Below, one piece after another: positions 34,137-43,485 of a DNA stretch of 64,000 nucleotides. Each line of letters begins with the position of its first letter. Position 1 is the first letter of the stretch. A model generated the notes under the pieces. The model had not been told where the DNA came from. It saw only the letters and a program-made list of their open reading frames with translations, and did no database searches. A program made the position numbers and the translations under genes. Origin of the DNA: Tubulanus polymorphus (lineage: Eukaryota > Nemertea > Palaeonemertea > Tubulaniformes > Tubulanidae); assembly GCF_964204645.1 (NCBI RefSeq), contig NC_134031.1, positions 2,773,001-2,837,000 on the forward strand, read 5' to 3'.

Positions 34137-37100
34137 ATGGAGCTGGCGGCGATCGCTAAGAGTTTACTGAGAAGTGTAGCCACTAATGAGGTGCGTATGA
34201 TCGAGGGGCCATAGTATCTAGCATCCGCTGTATGACACCTTTTAAGTGTAATCTGTAGAGAATTAGAAGAGAAGCAACAAGGGAGGGAGGGTGTCAATTA
34301 GATGTTACCTAATCGTTATAGTGGTAAGCTTTTATAGTCGAATGAGCTTCTGCGATCGTTAAACTAAACCACAGACAGTTTATTGACTAATAAGGGTGTC
34401 GCTGTCGGCTTTTCTGAATCCTGTCCTGCTGCGCTGGTGTAGCCCCACCCTCTAAATTTTGTGAGGGTGTGGCCGACTTGGTCGTAATCAGTAGCCTGTT
34501 ATATTTTCACAAATCACACTTTATGCACACACGTAATGTTGGTATCACAGCCCAGTATCACCATCTGATTGCTTGCTTAAACTACGACTAGGTAAAAAAT
34601 ATCCCTACTGTCTGTCACACATGCTCTTCGTGCGACGTTTTGGTCCGTAATTCCGTTAATAATCGGTTGATCTGTAAATATTATGCATCAATTTGTTCAG
34701 TAAGGAATTTGCATTCAGAAATAAATCATGAACTGGCAGAAATTTGTTTGTGTTTTCTTCTATCAGCGATAGTTTACCTAGCATACGCTCGCGTAATGCT
34801 GAAAAACGGCTTTTATGGCCCGTCACGTGGCGCCACCTACTGTATTTTGATATGCTAATGAGCAGGTGATGACATCACTGTAACGTTTCCGAGCGTCCGC
34901 GGAGCGGATTTTTCAGCATTACGCGAGCGTATGCTGAGCACAGGGGCTCGTCACGATAGCTGGGGGTCCAAAATCAAAGATTTGACCCAGTATCCTAGGT
35001 ACCACCTATAAAAAAAGAAAAGGGAGCTAACATTTTGACATACTAGAATTGACCTTCTCATTTCAATCGCTCATAACTTCGTAACCCATCGACCGATTCG
35101 CTCGAAATTGGTTTCGTTTCATTCCTAAGAGGTTACTTTTTCGTTTGAGACCTTCCGCGACAAAATCGGATAAGAGACACCCGAGAAATCACGACTCAAA
35201 TCCGAAAAAACGAGTCAAAATAGCCAAAGCCGGAATTACTAGGACGTCTCGGAGTAGTCGATTCCCGACGAAAAACGATGAGTTGACGCGGTTCCCGGAC
35301 GTTAATCTTCACATATCATACATCGCTGGAAAGCTTATGAACTGACCTTATTGAAAAATGCGTTTATTTGATAATCCGTTCCGAAACCGGCGACAAGCGA
35401 GGTGAAAATACGCACCGAACCGATAAATACGCACTTTAAGCGTCACTGAACCGCCATTGAGGGTGTGACGTCACGGGCTCTGAGGACTGATAAATTCGCG
35501 ATACGTGATTGGTCGACTGAATATGTCAATTATCTAGCGTTGCATGCTGGGATTTCTCATGACGTCACGCAGTTAATGGCGGCCGGAATACACTTGGAAA
35601 TCGTATTTATCGCATCAATCTGGATTATCAGCTCGCCAGTCGCGGGTATCGGAACGGATTATCAAATAAACGCATCTGTCAATAAGGTCAGTTCATAAGC
35701 TTTCCAGCGATGTATGATATGTGGCGATTAACGTCCGGGAACCGCGTCAAATCATCGTTTTTCGTTGGAAATTGAGCACTTCAAGCCGTCCTAGTAATTC
35801 CGGCTTTGGATATTTTGACCCGTTTTTTCGGATTTGAGTCGTGATTTCTCGGCCGTCTCCGGTCCGATTTCATCGGGGAAGGTCTCAAACGAAAAAGTCA
35901 CCTCTTGGGAATGAAACGAATCTAATTTTGTGTAAATCGGTCGATCGGTTACGAAGTTATGAGGGGTTGAAATGAGAAGGTCAATTCTAGTATGTCAAAA
36001 TGTTAGCTCCCTTTTCTTTTTTTATAGGTGGTACCTAGGATACTGGGTCAAATCTTTGATTTTGGACCCCCAGCTATCGTGACGAGCCCCTGTGATGCTG
36101 AGTAAACTATCGCTCATAAATGAAAACAAAAACAACTTCAGTGAAAATTGTTGTTTATTTCTGAATGCAAATTCCTCGCTGAACAAATTGATGCATAATA
36201 AAGGTAGATAAACCGATTATTAACGAAATCACGGACCAAAACGTCGCACGGAGAGTAGGTGTGACAGACAGTAGATTGATTAGCCCTGCTGCGTTCCTGA
36301 TTGACCCTGTTACAGGCTGTGACTGAATCTTTTTTCATGAAACCGTATCATACTAATTAGTATAATTGCTTTATTTCTATTTATTGAATCGCAGACTGTG
36401 GCTTTAGAATCGTTGTGGCAGAATGAAACATGCGTGATCACGTTTCTGCGGAGATTCGGGTGACAGTTGTGTCGTAACTACTCGAGGAAACTGAGCGCTC
36501 TCCGACCTCAGCTCGACGCTAACAATGTTAAAATGATCGGCGTCGGCTTAGAGGAGGAGGGCGTTCAGGAATTCGTCGATGGAAAGTTTTTCGACGGTGG
36601 TAAGTTTTAGCATTTTAAACCCTACTACAGTCAGCGGTTGTTTGTTTCCCCAAACAAACCGTATTTGTTTGCCTGGGTCCCTACGACTCATTGATTCCTT
36701 TTAGATAGAAAATGCTTTTAAAGGTGCTTGTAACTCCTTTGATTTGAGCAAAATGCTGGAACCTCCTTTAAAACTCCTTGACCTTCTTTAGAATTAGAAG
36801 TTTTTTCTGGTTAGCAGTTTTCCTGTAGACTAATCTTTTACCCAATCACATGGTTACCAAATTAGTAACCGAGTTTTTGGAGTAGGAATGATAAAGAGAT
36901 TTGTAACTCCTTGAAAACTCATTATATCCTAGAATGACTGATCTGTAAGGATCGTGATCGTTCATCTATTTTCATGACAGGACCACAGCCTTTTAAGTGT
37001 TGCCTGCACACTGCATCAGGACTCAAATCCGCTTGTCACTCGGGGGCGCTGCTGATAAGATGACTCTCTAATTTCAGAACTGTATATCGACACGAAGAAA

Positions 37101-37818
37101 GAATGCTATAAGAAAATGGGTTTCAAAAGGTACATTGTCTACAAATGAAATTCACTAGTTACTGTGAGCGGGGAAAAGTATTCAATACTGACTTTCCTGG
37201 TTTCGTTGCAGGTTCAACTTTTTCAATGTGTTTCCTGCTGTCTTTTCAAAAAATGCAAGAGATTCAGCTAATCAGGTCGGAACAAAATCTTAAGTTTACT
37301 CGTTTCTTAAAAGGGAAAATCCACAATTATGAAGTAACACTGATAAAGGAGTTTGTTGTTTAAACTCAATGCTATAAGCCGTTTCCAAAAACTTCTTTCG
37401 AAAATGGCTCATAACATTTGAGTTGAAAGGTGAAGATTCAACCCAAATAAGTTTTACCTCCTAATTGTGGCTTTTTTCCTCAATTCAATCAGAAAATCAT
37501 TGTCTCGGAAAACCTACTTGTTTCTTGATAAATAAAATTCATGGTCAGGACGCTCCGTAACAAATCCTATTCTTATCGATGTTTCAGGCGAAGGAACAAA
37601 ATATATCGGGAAATTTCAAAGGCGACGGAATGCAAAATGGCGGCACGTTAGTCGTGAAGAAAGGCGGCGAATTGTTGTTGCGATGGAACCAGGAAAACCC
37701 GGCCGATCACGTGCCGTTACAAGACGTATTAAACGCATTGAATATTAAAGAATCGATTCCGACAAGCGAAAACGAGCCGGAACTCGTGTGCGATGATAAT
37801 AGTTGCGAAATAGAATAG
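34137..37818 (+). CDS. PRXL2B: PRXL2B-like thioredoxin-fold selenoprotein (SelU family)
   Basis: Five exons, 34137-34190, 36395-36599, 37078-37129, 37212-37275 and 37588-37818, join in phase to 201 residues including one recoded TGA; vertebrate PRXL2B is about 198. Homology is clear along the protein: LESLWQNETCVITFLRRFG, then U-Q-L-C, VKMIGVGLEEEGVQEFVDG, GELYIDTKKECYKKMGFKR, NISGNFKGDGMQNGGTLVV. The TGA (36461-36463) sits where the homologue has the first Cys of its redox pair; the second Cys (TGT 36470-36472) is kept. PRXL2B is a thioredoxin-like cytosolic enzyme reported to reduce prostaglandin H2/prostamide. SelU-family members carry selenocysteine in some animals and cysteine in mammals. 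Intron 1 holds a 1.67-kb foldback. The C terminus has a DDNSCEIE tail. I infer that the TGA is read as selenocysteine; the SECIS hairpin downstream supports this. Confidence 0.93.
34305..34402. repeat. Dispersed repeat, copy 1
   Basis: About 95 bp (TTACCTAATCGTTATAGTGG ... AAACTAAACCACAGACAG ... GACTA) closely resembling 44072-44165 in the same orientation. Lies at the start of intron 1 of the PRXL2B-like gene. Function unknown. Confidence 0.6.
34605..36273. mobile_element. Large foldback element in intron 1 of PRXL2B
   Basis: A 1.67-kb imperfect palindrome. The outer arms (about 34605-34780 and 36096-36273) contain GTGCGACGTTTTGGTCCGT and its inverse. The inner arms (about 34936-35480 and 35550-36095) are about 545 bp each, starting CACAGGGGCTCGTCACGATA on the left and ending in the inverse on the right, around a loop of about 70 bp. 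No transposase is encoded, so it is non-autonomous. The left arm is interrupted by a smaller element (34782-34933). Confidence 0.85.
34782..34933. mobile_element. MITE nested in the foldback's left arm
   Basis: About 152 bp with 25-bp perfect terminal inverted repeats: CATACGCTCGCGTAATGCTG, then AAAAA, on the left and the inverse on the right. The right arm of the surrounding foldback lacks it (TTTACTCAGCAT runs directly into CACAGG), showing that this is a later insertion. GC-rich interior, no coding capacity. Confidence 0.8.
37309..37490. repeat. MITE-like element (CCACAATTATGAAGT family)
   Basis: Lies in the last intron of the PRXL2B-like gene. AAATCCACAATTATGAAGTAA on the left (20-base core CCACAATTATGAAGTAA) faces CCTAATTGTGGCTTTTTTCC on the right. 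Inner arms contain ATGCTATAAGCCGTTTCCAA and its inverse. Relatives are at about 4920-5105 and 23131-23565. Confidence 0.6.
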
Positions 37819-38006
37819 ACTCGAGTCACCGAAACCGTGCATCCGTTTCCTCGATTACAGTTTAACTGTTAACATTTTTGGTGTAATTGCTTCTATATTG
37901 GTTACTTCAACCTCAGGATCCTCTTCAACTGTTTGTTAAATTTGACGCTACATGTATTATTGAAAATTAATTTCCTACCTCTATTAGTTAAATCTAGCTT
38001 TTAACT

Positions 38007-38016
38007 AATAAATAAA
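38007..38016 (+). terminator. Proximal poly(A) signal, before the SECIS
   Basis: Two overlapping AATAAA hexamers (AATAAATAAA) about 190 nt after the PRXL2B stop codon. Use of this site would give an mRNA without the SECIS element. Confidence 0.4.
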
Positions 38017-38429
38017 TATTTGAGAGCTAGATTTCCAAGGATGAAGTTCTAGAGTTACTATGGAGCTTTATCCTTGAAAATTTGGCCAAGTAGTTCATTA
38101 TTCTATTTATTGCGGTCATCCAAATATGGTTTAAATGCACGAGGTCAAGGGTCCAGAAATCAAGCAATTTCCTTCAATAGTGATAATGCTCAAGTGTGCA
38201 AGTAGATTTTGAATGCGATATGTCTAAGACCCATGAATTATTTTGACTTTCGAAGGTCATCTCATTAAATCAAAACGATTTTTCACCGGTCAATTGTTTT
38301 TTCATGACATTATATTTTGTTACTAAAGCCTGTTCTTTAATATCCTTCTCTCATACTGCCTTACTGATATGAATTGAGCCTGTTATTTAATTATTATGAC
38401 GATTGAATGCGTCTTTGTGTCGGTACGTA

Positions 38430-38520
38430 TTGTATGTTTCTACTGAATGACCGAATGACGTTCGTTAGATGCAAATCTGAAATCGACGATAATCTATCGA
38501 CTGATACTTGTGAGAAATCA
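38430..38520 (+). promoter_or_regulatory. SECIS element in the 3' UTR of the PRXL2B selenoprotein
   Basis: Core features seen: ATGA at 38455-38458; stem GTTCGTTAGAT (38460-38470) pairing with ATCTATCGAC (38492-38501) with one bulged T and one T-T mismatch; AAA in the apical loop (38473-38475); and TGAT (38502-38505) opposite ATGA. This forms the non-Watson-Crick quartet of eukaryotic SECIS hairpins. An ATC/GAT mini-stem in the loop would make it type II. A lower helix is possible between TTTCT (about 38436) and AGAAA (about 38513). Binds SBP2 to direct UGA recoding. Confidence 0.78.
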
Positions 38521-38607
38521 CACGTCACGTCAGAATTAACTTACAACACGGAAGAAACAGAGCTGTTAAATGTATTTTCTATTTATATTTATAATTTACA
38601 CATTTCG

Positions 38608-38613
38608 AATAAA
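38608..38613 (+). terminator. Distal poly(A) signal of PRXL2B
   Basis: AATAAA about 100 nt after the SECIS core and 790 nt after the stop codon. Its use keeps the SECIS in the mRNA. Confidence 0.55.
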
Positions 38614-38791
38614 TGTCTAATGCACTATTTGCATATGTGAACTTCCATTCGTTTTTCAAAGACATTTTTCATATTCTTCAAGCCAGTTGTGTAGGCTGAA
38701 GTCATCACTGATACATGGATTATCGCTGACTTGTCAGTATAATTAAATGCACAGTTTGGTTTGACATCTCTCTCAAATTGACGGATTTCTT

Positions 38792-41700
38792 TCACGTTTG
38801 TTCACAAGACGGCTTCAACATTCTCAATAGATAGCTGCCCAGTTCTTCATCCTAAACGCAAGGAAAATAACCAGTTAGCAGAGAACCAGCTAATCCTAAT
38901 CACATTTGGTACGAACATAGTATAGGTTAGGGGCTAAGAAAATAATGCGGAGATTTTTGGGAATGTAGTTTTGACCGCTCTCTTAGAGTAAGTCATCAAC
39001 ATATAATGTTCCTTCTACCTATGTTAAACTGTAAGAATGTTCCGTATCCCACTGTGTTGAATTCAGTGAGTTTTCCTTTTCTACGAACCTGATAAGACCA
39101 CGAGACGAGAACTTCCTTTTCGTCGTCCTCGTCGCCGGAAACTTTCACCAGAACCGATTCTGAAATCGTTATCGATCCGTCGGTTGAATACTGAATATTC
39201 ACATCGGGTAATTTACTGAAATATACACAATATTGTCAAACGCTCACGCTATCAGATCAAAAGGGAAAATTAGTGACAAAAACCCCATTTTGCCTTTTTC
39301 AGCGTTTAGGCAGACATTTCCTATACTCACGATTTGATAAGCTGATAAAGTTGTTCGGAGAATTTCGCCGGTGTCGTACTCGCTGGATCGTCTAAAGTCA
39401 ATGTAGATGTGAACCGTATTGTGTGTTCCTGTGAGCCTAGCGTTTCTAACGCCTGCAGCGGATCAATCAACTTCATCGTCTGCGAATAAGAAATATCCGG
39501 AGATCGTTTCAAAACGTCGTCAAAATTGATTTCATTCGCTTGAATAGTTGATTTAGATATACTGACATTATCTTGTAGTAACAAAGCTCCATTCATGACT
39601 TTCGCCGATTTCGGATTAGAACCAATAGCTCCTGAAAAATTGAATAAAAATCCCTGCATGGTCGCTATAAACCAGTTAATAGAATCTCAAACTTTAAAAC
39701 TCTCACCTCAAGGAAAACAAAAAATAAATGGACAAGTTTTAAAATGATCATCTAAAATACAAACTGCAGGGTGGCCACTTTTATTTATCAAAATTCGCTG
39801 ACTTTTCTCAAGAAAAATTCCCTGACTCTTCCCTGATTTCCAGGTTAGTGGCCACCTTGATGTGTATCCTTAATGAAGTAGACTGCGCCTTAAAGAGGTC
39901 AGATGCATCAAGATTAAAATGGCACCCAATCTCACCTGCCAGAGATGCCTCTCTCTTGAGTAGTTTCAGAGACACATCGACCGGTATGTTTGGCGTACAG
40001 GGTATGATCACTGTTTCTCCATTCGCCGGTTTAAAACAATTTATATCTGAAACAGTGAATTTACAAATTATCTCCAAGAATTTGTGCCTATACTCAAAGA
40101 CTTTTTAAGTCCTTAAACATACTGAATTCTTGCTGTATTTTTTTCTTAAGGAATTCCATCTTGACGTTTTCGCCGTGTACGAGCATCACGTTCTGCGGCT
40201 CGCATTGTCTGATCAGCTGCATTATTCCTTTAGCATCGGCGTGTGCGCTGAATGACATGTATTCCACCGCTAATTTCACCTCCAACTGTTAAAACATTCA
40301 AAACAATCACGATTTAATCAATAGAAATCTGATATCATAGAAAAAATGTTTCTATAATGATACACAGTAGACTCCACTTTAAATTAAGACATCATTCACC
40401 AGGCATCTACACATTGAATGACGTTTTAAATCTGGACTTCTCCTAATCCAGAAAAATTGCACAAGTGTCCCATGTCCGAATTAAGCAGGGACTTACGTAC
40501 ATCATGTTTGGAGATTTAAACTGAAATTCATTACCGTTTGTCTGTTTTCCAGTTCCAATTTTCGGACGCCACCGAGAATTTTGTGTCCCACCGTTCCAGC
40601 AACGCAATAACCGGGCATTATCACCTGAAATAAGCAACAAGCGTTTACTTCAACAGATCAAGTCCATCAATCGATGTTTATAAACTAAATCTTAAAACCT
40701 ATTTGTTCGTCAAACTAGTTCCCTGTTCTGTTTGTATCACGCAAAGCTAATGCGCATATGGATTTTAGGCTCAATGAATTATTATTATCATTATTTGTGT
40801 GCATTCGGCGTTTACCATGTTGTTTTCGTTGGGCGCCCATCGTTTGAATATCTGCAGCGAGAGTCCAGCGTGCAGCATCCCCGGCGTGGCGAATACGACC
40901 ATCGGTCCGGGATTATCAATAAACGAACGATCAAATGGCTGAAGTATACAAACACACACGATATCACTGAGACCTGTCCTCTCGCGGGGTTCTGAACCCG
41001 ATAGCTTCACGAGTCTCTTATCCGCAGAATCGCGACGCCATCGGCTTCGAATCCGATCATGAACAACATAACAAAAGATCAATGTATAATTGATTCATTT
41101 ACCTTAATGTGTTTGAAATCGAACATATTTCTTTGCACGAATGTTTTTCGTATTTTCTGATTCGTCCAAGTAATAAACAGTTTATAATAATGGTTCGCCT
41201 GAAGAATATTGGAATTCAAAAACAATAAATCTATGACACTGACGAAGATAGAGGGAGGTTTTTACGTATGTTGCGATGAAAGCACCTTTTCAGTGAGTCC
41301 CAGCGAGAAGAAAATCGGAACTTTCAGATTCATTCGATCCCAGTATGTTTCCAGTAGAATGCACAATTCTTGAGCTCTTCCCAACGCGAATACAGGAATC
41401 AACACCTAACAGTTCGAAAATGATATTTCATGAACGATTTCCGACCATGTGTCATTCAGAATAAGGATGTTGTAATAATGAAATTCATCCCTACATACAG
41501 ACATCGGTCAATTCAATAAACCGTTTAACTGTAACCTACCTTACCACCTTTATCGACGCAGTCGTGAACTTTCTTTAGGAAATCGTGTTCTCGAGCTCGT
41601 TTTGAATCTCGTATCGTCGTCGCGTACGTCGATTCCGTGATCAGCAGATTCGGACGACATTTATCGATCCAAGCCGCGCCGAGATGCCGGTCCGGTGTCA

Positions 41701-43485
41701 TATTATAGTCACCCTGAAAAGTTTTGCACAATTTTTGAGTCAAAATAAGTAGATTTCCATGAGTCACAAACCCCACAAATACTACCAAAGTCTACTTAAG
41801 ACACATTAGGGCTATATCATCTCTTTGAAGTTTTGAAATCATCATCAAAAACATTTTTCTTGAAATTTGTCACTTGAGAAACAAATTATTTTATCATTAT
41901 TATCATTTCAGCTTGGATACCAATCTAACAATTATGGTTAAAACTAGATCCTGACTTACCGTGTATACAACTGATTCAGAGCCTACTTTCACGTGAAACA
42001 TCGCGGCTCCCAGAACATGTCCGGCATAATACGCCTTGATTTCCAATTCATCATCAACCTAGAAAACATGTTCACAAACATTCGAAAAAAACAATCTTAA
42101 GAGAAAGGACACAAAGATCTATAACATTCTTGACTCAATGAGTTACCTGTATTGTTTGGTGTAAGTTGACGGCTATTACTTTCTTCATGCAAGATTTAAT
42201 CATTTCCGAAGTGAAGAAATTCTGTTCGCCTTTTCTATCGACAGTGATTTTACGATAATCCTCCTGCAAATTGATTAGAGACGATTAGAAAACGAGGTCT
42301 ACTTGATTATTAGTGAATTAAGACTGATAATTATGCGTATCATTTTACACATACCAACAATATCGGACAAATAGCTTTTGTCGGATGCGTCATGTAAATC
42401 GGACCATCGAAACCGACCATTTCTGACATGTAAGGTAAAGCCCCGCAGTGATCCAAGTGGAAATGACTGAAATAAGTTCAAGAACCATTTTGAACGAAGC
42501 AGTTTAATTATCTTATTGAAAGTTAATTCTAAAGGGTCTTACGTGATGATAACGCAGTCGAGATGTTCTGTAAGTCGGCCGGTTCGAGTAATGAACGTGA
42601 AATCGGGAAACCTTCGCTGAAATTATAGAAAAATGGACCCAGTTTCACACCTTGAATTCAGTTTGAATCTATGGAATTATGAATAGTTCGTTGTCCATTG
42701 ATAATGAACGATCTCGCAATTGATGACTTCTTAAGTTTTTGATTCATTAACATTTTCTTTCATTTCCATATGTTTGAATCTAGAGTCTGTTTAATCCTTA
42801 CAACCCAAGAGGGTCCTGGGACCGTTTATCAGTTCAGTTACAGTCAAAATCGCATATTGGACACATCTCATACATCATTTAATGGATACAGTTTCTAGAC
42901 AGTTCCCACTCGATGAGAGGATAATTGATGTCTTTATAGAGTCATGACTTCCACCTAACATTATAGAAAATGGAGTCAACCGATCTGATTTTGTTGCTCA
43001 CCTCATCGTTGTAGCCCATGTGCATTCCACAATCCATCATTATATTCTTACCACCGACCGTTATCAACACACAACTGCGACCAACGTCTTTAAAACAACA
43101 GTCAACATATCAGATGAATTTAAAAGTAAGTAAAAATCAACCGGTCGAAAATAGAACGAATTTGTAGATGGTGGAAAATATAGAAATGCTTGTATTATTA
43201 GGCCTATAAGCAAACTGAATTTTTGCCAAAGTTCCAATACAAGCCAAGGGAATCTGGTATCTAGACTTGTCGAATTATTTAACATCAGCGACTAAAGTAG
43301 GCATGCAATAAACTTTTGGAAGGCTTACCTTGACCAGCACCTGAAAATGAAAAAAAAGTATAGGGTTAAAAACTCAAAAAATCAAAAGAAAAAGATCGAA
43401 AAAAGATAGCAAATTCGATGGAAACGGAGACTTCAAAATCAAATATACTGATCTTACCTAATGGTACGACACTTATTTCTGACAT
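38792..43485 (-). CDS. INTS11: Integrator complex subunit 11 (RNA endonuclease)
   Basis: Catalytic metallo-beta-lactamase/beta-CASP nuclease of the Integrator complex; cuts snRNA and other nascent Pol II transcripts in the nucleus. Seventeen exons, all in phase, give 630 residues: 43485-43458, 43340-43329, 43087-43002, 42616-42543, 42466-42355, 42263-42147, 42058-41960, 41713-41540, 41405-41286, 41198-41103, 40938-40816, 40624-40535, 40285-40123, 40046-39936, 39631-39331, 39215-39089, 38851-38792. Seen: [19 protein letters not shown] start, zinc motif [86 protein letters not shown] and [21 protein letters not shown] opens the C-terminal part. The C-terminal 200 residues are less conserved, as usual for binding to INTS9. 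Exon 2 is only 12 nt. Confidence 0.96.

Follow-up and report, generated by a model that had tools for sequence, protein, structure and literature searches.

A PRXL2B/SelU3-like gene with an in-frame UGA at the redox cysteine site and a weak candidate SECIS element

SelU3 proteins and the PRXL2B-like gene

Selenocysteine (Sec)-containing SelU3 has been published in invertebrates by Jiang et al. 2012 (PMC3473315); that paper gives eight SelU3 proteins in seven species, three of them Cys forms (sea urchin, amphioxus and sea squirt), all deuterostome, which leaves five Sec forms by subtraction. According to a second study, all Sec-containing vertebrate SelU proteins are SelU1 and there is no evidence for an early Sec-to-Cys change in SelU2 or SelU3 (PMC3316567), and SelU3 was earlier listed among fish selenoproteins with mammalian Cys homologues (PMC2397514). 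No paper naming PRXL2B together with selenocysteine was found in the literature searched. An earlier note on this DNA had held that Sec in this gene would lie outside the known SelU lineages; since Sec-SelU3 is in print for invertebrates (PMC3473315), the claim of a new Sec lineage fails in general and would hold only for, say, a deuterostome. The assembly has no COX1, and it also lacks the exact 23-nt pattern of the bantam miRNA, which is a hint, though not a demonstration, that the animal is a non-protostome.

The window, by which we mean the whole stretch of 64,000 nucleotides analysed, carries a PRXL2B/SelU3-like gene on the + strand (34137-37818), with five exons and a predicted product of 201 residues (Table 1). 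The introns are GT-AG in all four cases, every phase is compatible, and the 201-codon ORF, ended by a terminal TAG, has the TGA of codon 41 as its sole internal stop. In frame 1, exon 2 reads TVALESLWQNETCVITFLRRFG, then this stop, then QLCRNYSRKL. Apart from a single one-residue gap, residues 2-186 of the encoded protein align throughout with the human prostamide/PGF synthase (PDB 9us9; E 3.7e-49). The first Cys of human RRFGCVVC/LRRFGCVVC is the residue paired with the TGA, so that a [C/U]xxC redox motif follows LRRFG in both proteins. In the second best match, PDB chain 9usa, the aligned row has Ser at both motif positions. Identity to 9us9 is 17/39 upstream of the TGA and 65/145 downstream (44-45% on both sides), hence there is no sign of decay beyond the TGA. 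An in-frame UGA aligned with the Cys of a homologue, with homology resuming after it, is the pattern by which a selenoprotein gene is called, and it is found here. The protein also contains an AhpC-TSA_2 domain (PF13911; 2.9e-25, 89.3 bits, cut-off 27). The earlier note had described an in-frame TGA at the redox Cys, homology directly past it and other exons intact and in phase, all of which we confirm; its second conserved Cys, placed two residues after the TGA, lies three residues away, the motif being U-x-x-C.

A search of the genome with this protein gave five matches, four of them to its own exons and the fifth (E 0.18) to a PRXL2A-like gene, a tentative label given for its likeness to the human sequence; genome-wide, no second copy or other good PRXL2B match was seen. 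Going by the PDB match and the E 0.18 genome match, the gene appears nearer to prostamide/PGF synthase than to PRXL2A, a placement by pairwise matches that involve a PDB set in which PRXL2A or PRXL2C may be missing.

Table 1. Features of the PRXL2B/SelU3-like locus (positions in the window) and Sec-site TGA codons of other genes in the genome
Feature	Positions	Strand	Basis or remark
Exon 1, PRXL2B/SelU3-like	34137..34190	+	Start codon 34137; phase 0; GT donor 34191; human 9us9 alignment from residue 2
Exon 2, contains in-frame TGA	36395..36599	+	LRRFG-TGA-QLC aligned with LRRFG-C-VVC
TGA codon 41, site of first Cys of human CxxC motif	36461..36463	+	Frame reading and human alignment
Exon 3	37078..37129	+	Splice fit, genome match, human alignment
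Exon 4	37212..37275	+	Splice fit, genome match, human alignment
Exon 5, coding part	37588..37818	+	PF13911 match; stop TAG 37816-37818
Probable 3'-UTR, provided AATAAA at 38608 is used	37819..38630	+	Listing of poly(A)-signal hexamers
Weak SECIS candidate, ATGAC ... AAA ... TGAT	38454..38506	+	Core 636 nt past stop; evidence mixed
GPX4-like, Sec-site TGA			NVASK-TGA-GLTEKN
SelW-like (three genes), Sec-site TGA			YCGM-TGA; SGG-TGA-GYGPRF; SGK-TGA-GYRPRF
MsrB1-like, Sec-site TGA			RF-TGA-IFSES
Deiodinase (DIO), Sec-site TGA			GNCT-TGA-PPF
Sep15, Sec-site TGA			VCA-TGA-KLGRFPQVQ

Two further features of the neighbourhood were observed. Intron 1 holds a long imperfect inverted repeat (34605-36274) with arms at 34939-35431 and 35602-36094 (493 nt, 90%) and outer arms at 34605-34725 and 36154-36274, probably a foldback or MITE-type transposon. 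Downstream, on the - strand at about 38800-42000, lies a putative convergent gene with a metallo-beta-lactamase look, INTS11-like by eye. The human counterparts of PRXL2B and INTS11 are presumably both on 1p36, and this shared location suggests that the neighbourhood may be old.

Selenoprotein genes and SECIS-shaped elements in the genome

Two tRNA-Sec genes were found (81.6 and 81.1 bits), ARAGORN giving the anticodon UCA for both, and the remaining 21 of 23 tRNA-Sec matches fell under the cut-off. When five Pfam families were searched and exon joins judged by eye, seven other genes had a TGA at the Sec site (GPX4, three SelW-like, MsrB1, DIO and Sep15), with names and Sec motifs assigned from Pfam matches and the known Sec sites of these families; there was also a weak SelM-like match (L026). 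A SECIS-shaped element lies downstream in 7/7 of these genes, at most about 1.1 kb from the matched exon. The strict fold scan picked up six of the seven elements (-21.3 to -34.9 kcal/mol), and the Sep15 element (-24.9 kcal/mol) needed a relaxed UUGA core. SECIS-shaped elements were also found at a MIEN1-like Rdx gene (-23.1 kcal/mol) and at PRXL2A (SelU1), the latter with the lowest energy among the nine (-44.7 kcal/mol); the Sec exons of these two genes were not located in the sequence read, which for PRXL2A covered 6.3 kb upstream and did not reveal a Sec/Cys exon.

In an alignment of eight of the elements, PRXL2A and MIEN1 included, 9/10 helix-II pairs had changed on both sides, which 12 of 500 shuffles equalled, and the covariation score was matched by none of 500 shuffles. 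Both measures suggest that the elements are a real family. Five control genes (DIO, Sep15, MsrB1, MIEN1-like and PRXL2A) have their element 160-932 nt past the stop. In summary, the organism appears, on its genomic sequence, to make selenoproteins.

The elements of eight loci (L012, L017, L018, L019, L025, L030, L031 and L033) mostly have the core ATGA...AA...NGA, with TTGA in Sep15. At one locus (L019, G000:C7:19709000-19718000) a tandem pair of SelW-like genes, each with TGA at the Sec site, shares the same SECIS core. A GPX-like exon (L007, G000:C1:27928516-27928722) has Asp-Arg (IAVGDRSAA) at the expected Sec/Cys site and perhaps belongs to a non-catalytic GPX.

A SECIS candidate in the 3'-UTR

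The candidate element of the PRXL2B/SelU3-like gene was first spotted by eye at 38455, and its distance of 636 nt from the stop is inside the range of the control genes. Further AATAAA hexamers occur upstream of it (38007 and 38011) and the one at 38608 is downstream, so the candidate would be in the mRNA only if the 38608 signal is used, and transcripts ending earlier would lack it.

The first pattern score (26.0) was too unspecific for a SECIS test, at least 25 other sites in the window being equally high. With a redesigned score the candidate came first in the window (28.1, the next site having 25.2) and 1 of 1000 shuffles scored as high; a wider search over some 357 kb of strand, a figure that counts overlapping loci, gave two unrelated sites with higher scores. 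This score is biased because it was designed after the candidate had been seen, and covariance models make a fairer, less biased test. Model R1, trained on the eight elements from other genes, placed 38454-38506 (+) at the top of 12 matches on both strands of the window (14.4 bits, E 0.51; next 11.6), and in a search over 881 nt the E-value was 0.007. The top R1 match would fall by accident on the correct strand of the 812-nt 3'-UTR in about 0.6% of cases (812/128,000). The training elements score 29.9-47.1 bits, values that are inflated by their membership of the training set. The alignments behind the held-out models R2 and R3 were built with R1, whose own training set included all eight elements. 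R2 gave the candidate 17.5 bits, with held-out elements at 21.9, 21.0 and 16.9 and the next window match at 13.9; R3 gave it 9.1 bits, sixth among the window matches, with held-out controls at 26.8, 17.5 and 14.8. The candidate therefore scores like a true element by R2 and like noise by R3.

By a relaxed fold scan, the site at 38455 has -11.6 kcal/mol, lies 7.2 above the MFE and has little helix I, the nine control elements having -21.3 to -44.7 kcal/mol and an MFE gap of 0-3.7. This energy resembles that of three unrelated high-scoring sites (-9.5, -12.8 and -19.7). The fold z-scores of the candidate were -0.60 and -0.42, that of the SelWb control -0.45. The strict fold-energy scans, the first of which were too strict as SECIS tests, showed no SECIS in the PRXL2B 3'-UTR; their background was 43 matches over both strands of the window (128 kb), five of them at -20 kcal/mol or below with a gap of at most 4. 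Rfam likewise had no SECIS in this 3'-UTR, nor any match at gathering score in the whole window, and SECIS_1 did not match the candidate even within 111 nt; the SelWa element was also missed by SECIS_1. Genome-wide, RF00031 was scored on 150 of 6569 candidates and matched none of them, nor did it match anything in the prokaryotic controls. Its sensitivity is too low for a SECIS to be excluded in this way: the GPX4 element reached 30.9 bits (cut-off 35) and that of SelWa was missed. In summary, there is moderate evidence that 38454-38506 is a weak or decaying SECIS.

The same 3'-UTR has a nearly perfect 25-bp hairpin at 38026-38089 (+; z -5.65; z -8.1 for a 95-nt stretch at 37990 that includes a neighbouring hairpin as well), which resembles either a miRNA precursor or an inverted duplication of recent date; the region 37880-38640 matches only itself in the genome. 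The hairpin was rejected as a SECIS, its ATGA being fully paired (GGAUGAAG with CUUUAUCC), with neither an opposing GA nor an apical AA.

Explanations for the in-frame UGA

The TGA at codon 41 most likely originated as a Sec codon: it is the right codon, the gene is intact and the genome, by its sequence, makes selenoproteins. We favour, with a probability of roughly 0.58, an invertebrate SelU3 (PRXL2B) gene whose codon 41 UGA is read as Sec to give a U-x-x-C enzyme. The UGA would be decoded by tRNA-Sec with the aid of a 3'-UTR element, either the weak one at 38454-38506 or another that the scans did not recognise. The product would be a thioredoxin-fold, peroxiredoxin-like enzyme of the prostamide/PGF synthase type, in which the selenolate may do what the catalytic Cys does in the human protein, attacking peroxides (prostaglandin H2, for example) and reducing them. 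The resolving residue may be the Cys that lies three positions past the Sec. The statement of the earlier note that the gene is a selenoprotein goes beyond this evidence, the SECIS being only a weak candidate, while a Sec codon as the origin of the TGA stands as the likeliest case.

The best surviving rival, which we consider possible but doubtful, is a dying Sec gene: a Sec-SelU3 ancestor whose SECIS has decayed, 38454-38506 being the remnant, so that translation now ends at the UGA with 40 residues made, in a young pseudogene with its frame intact. It accounts for the weak element as well as the Sec reading does: the PRXL2B 3'-UTR has no strong SECIS, in contrast to the seven Sec-site TGA genes checked, and the candidate scores under most control elements. 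The invertebrate study describes a sponge SelU3 copy lacking a SECIS and interpreted as inactive (PMC3473315). However, the 201 codons have no second lesion, the splice sites are all intact, human identity is uniform and no second copy was seen in the genome. The loss of the SECIS would have to be young, as a dead frame stays clean only briefly: in a simulation of neutral drift of the CDS, limited to substitutions, an extra in-frame stop appeared in 36.5%, 69.5% and 91% of runs at 2%, 5% and 10% divergence.

A variant in which the animal is a deuterostome, or of another lineage with only Cys-SelU3 reported, and has kept the Sec is unlikely; the UGA would then either be decoded with the help of an exceptionally weak SECIS or belong to a gene that is losing its SECIS ahead of frame decay. 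It is rather improbable that the true SECIS lies beyond the assumed 3'-UTR, for example behind a 3'-UTR intron, and that 38454-38506 is there by chance. The end of the 3'-UTR is a predicted one and R3 gives the candidate no distinction, but the strict scan of the + strand over 37.7-64 kb had five matches, the best at -19.9 and -19.6 kcal/mol with poor SECIS shape, and the convergent gene apparently ends at about 38.8-38.9 kb (frame judged by eye).

The observed codon, which comes from one genome, would also result if a Cys codon (TGC/TGT) had become TGA through a nonsense mutation in this allele or through an error of assembly. We regard this as very improbable, since the change must strike one particular codon among 201 (a chance of about 1 in 200 for a random nonsense codon), and Sec is reported at the same site in several invertebrates (PMC3473315). 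We give least credence to a true or bypassed stop, with an acceptor at CAG 36464-36466 (CAG|TTG would stay in frame with exon 1) or downstream initiation yielding a shorter protein that lacks the redox motif, as there is no pyrimidine tract upstream of this CAG by eye and 24 codons would be lost, including the human-conserved LRRFG and the first redox residue.

Read as a Sec gene, the locus would be one more Sec-coding SelU3, which an automatic pipeline would cut short at codon 41 or label as a pseudogene. Its intact Sec frame and barely recognisable SECIS, set against seven strong elements in the genome, make it a testable case of either a minimal SECIS or selenoprotein gene death. Human PRXL2B (PDB 9us9, 9usa) is collinear with the protein over query residues 2-186 and its CVVC matches U-QL-C; it has Cys at the motif, so that a SECIS is unneeded, whereas the gene described here has TGA. 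SelU1 (PRXL2A) of the same genome, which is a paralogue going by the weak E 0.18 match, has a strong SECIS-shaped element 932 nt past its stop. The invertebrate Sec-SelU3 proteins, likened here from their published description (PMC3473315), belong to the same prostamide/PGF synthase subfamily and have Sec where the mammalian protein has Cys; compared with them, the gene described here differs in that its SECIS is weak or absent.
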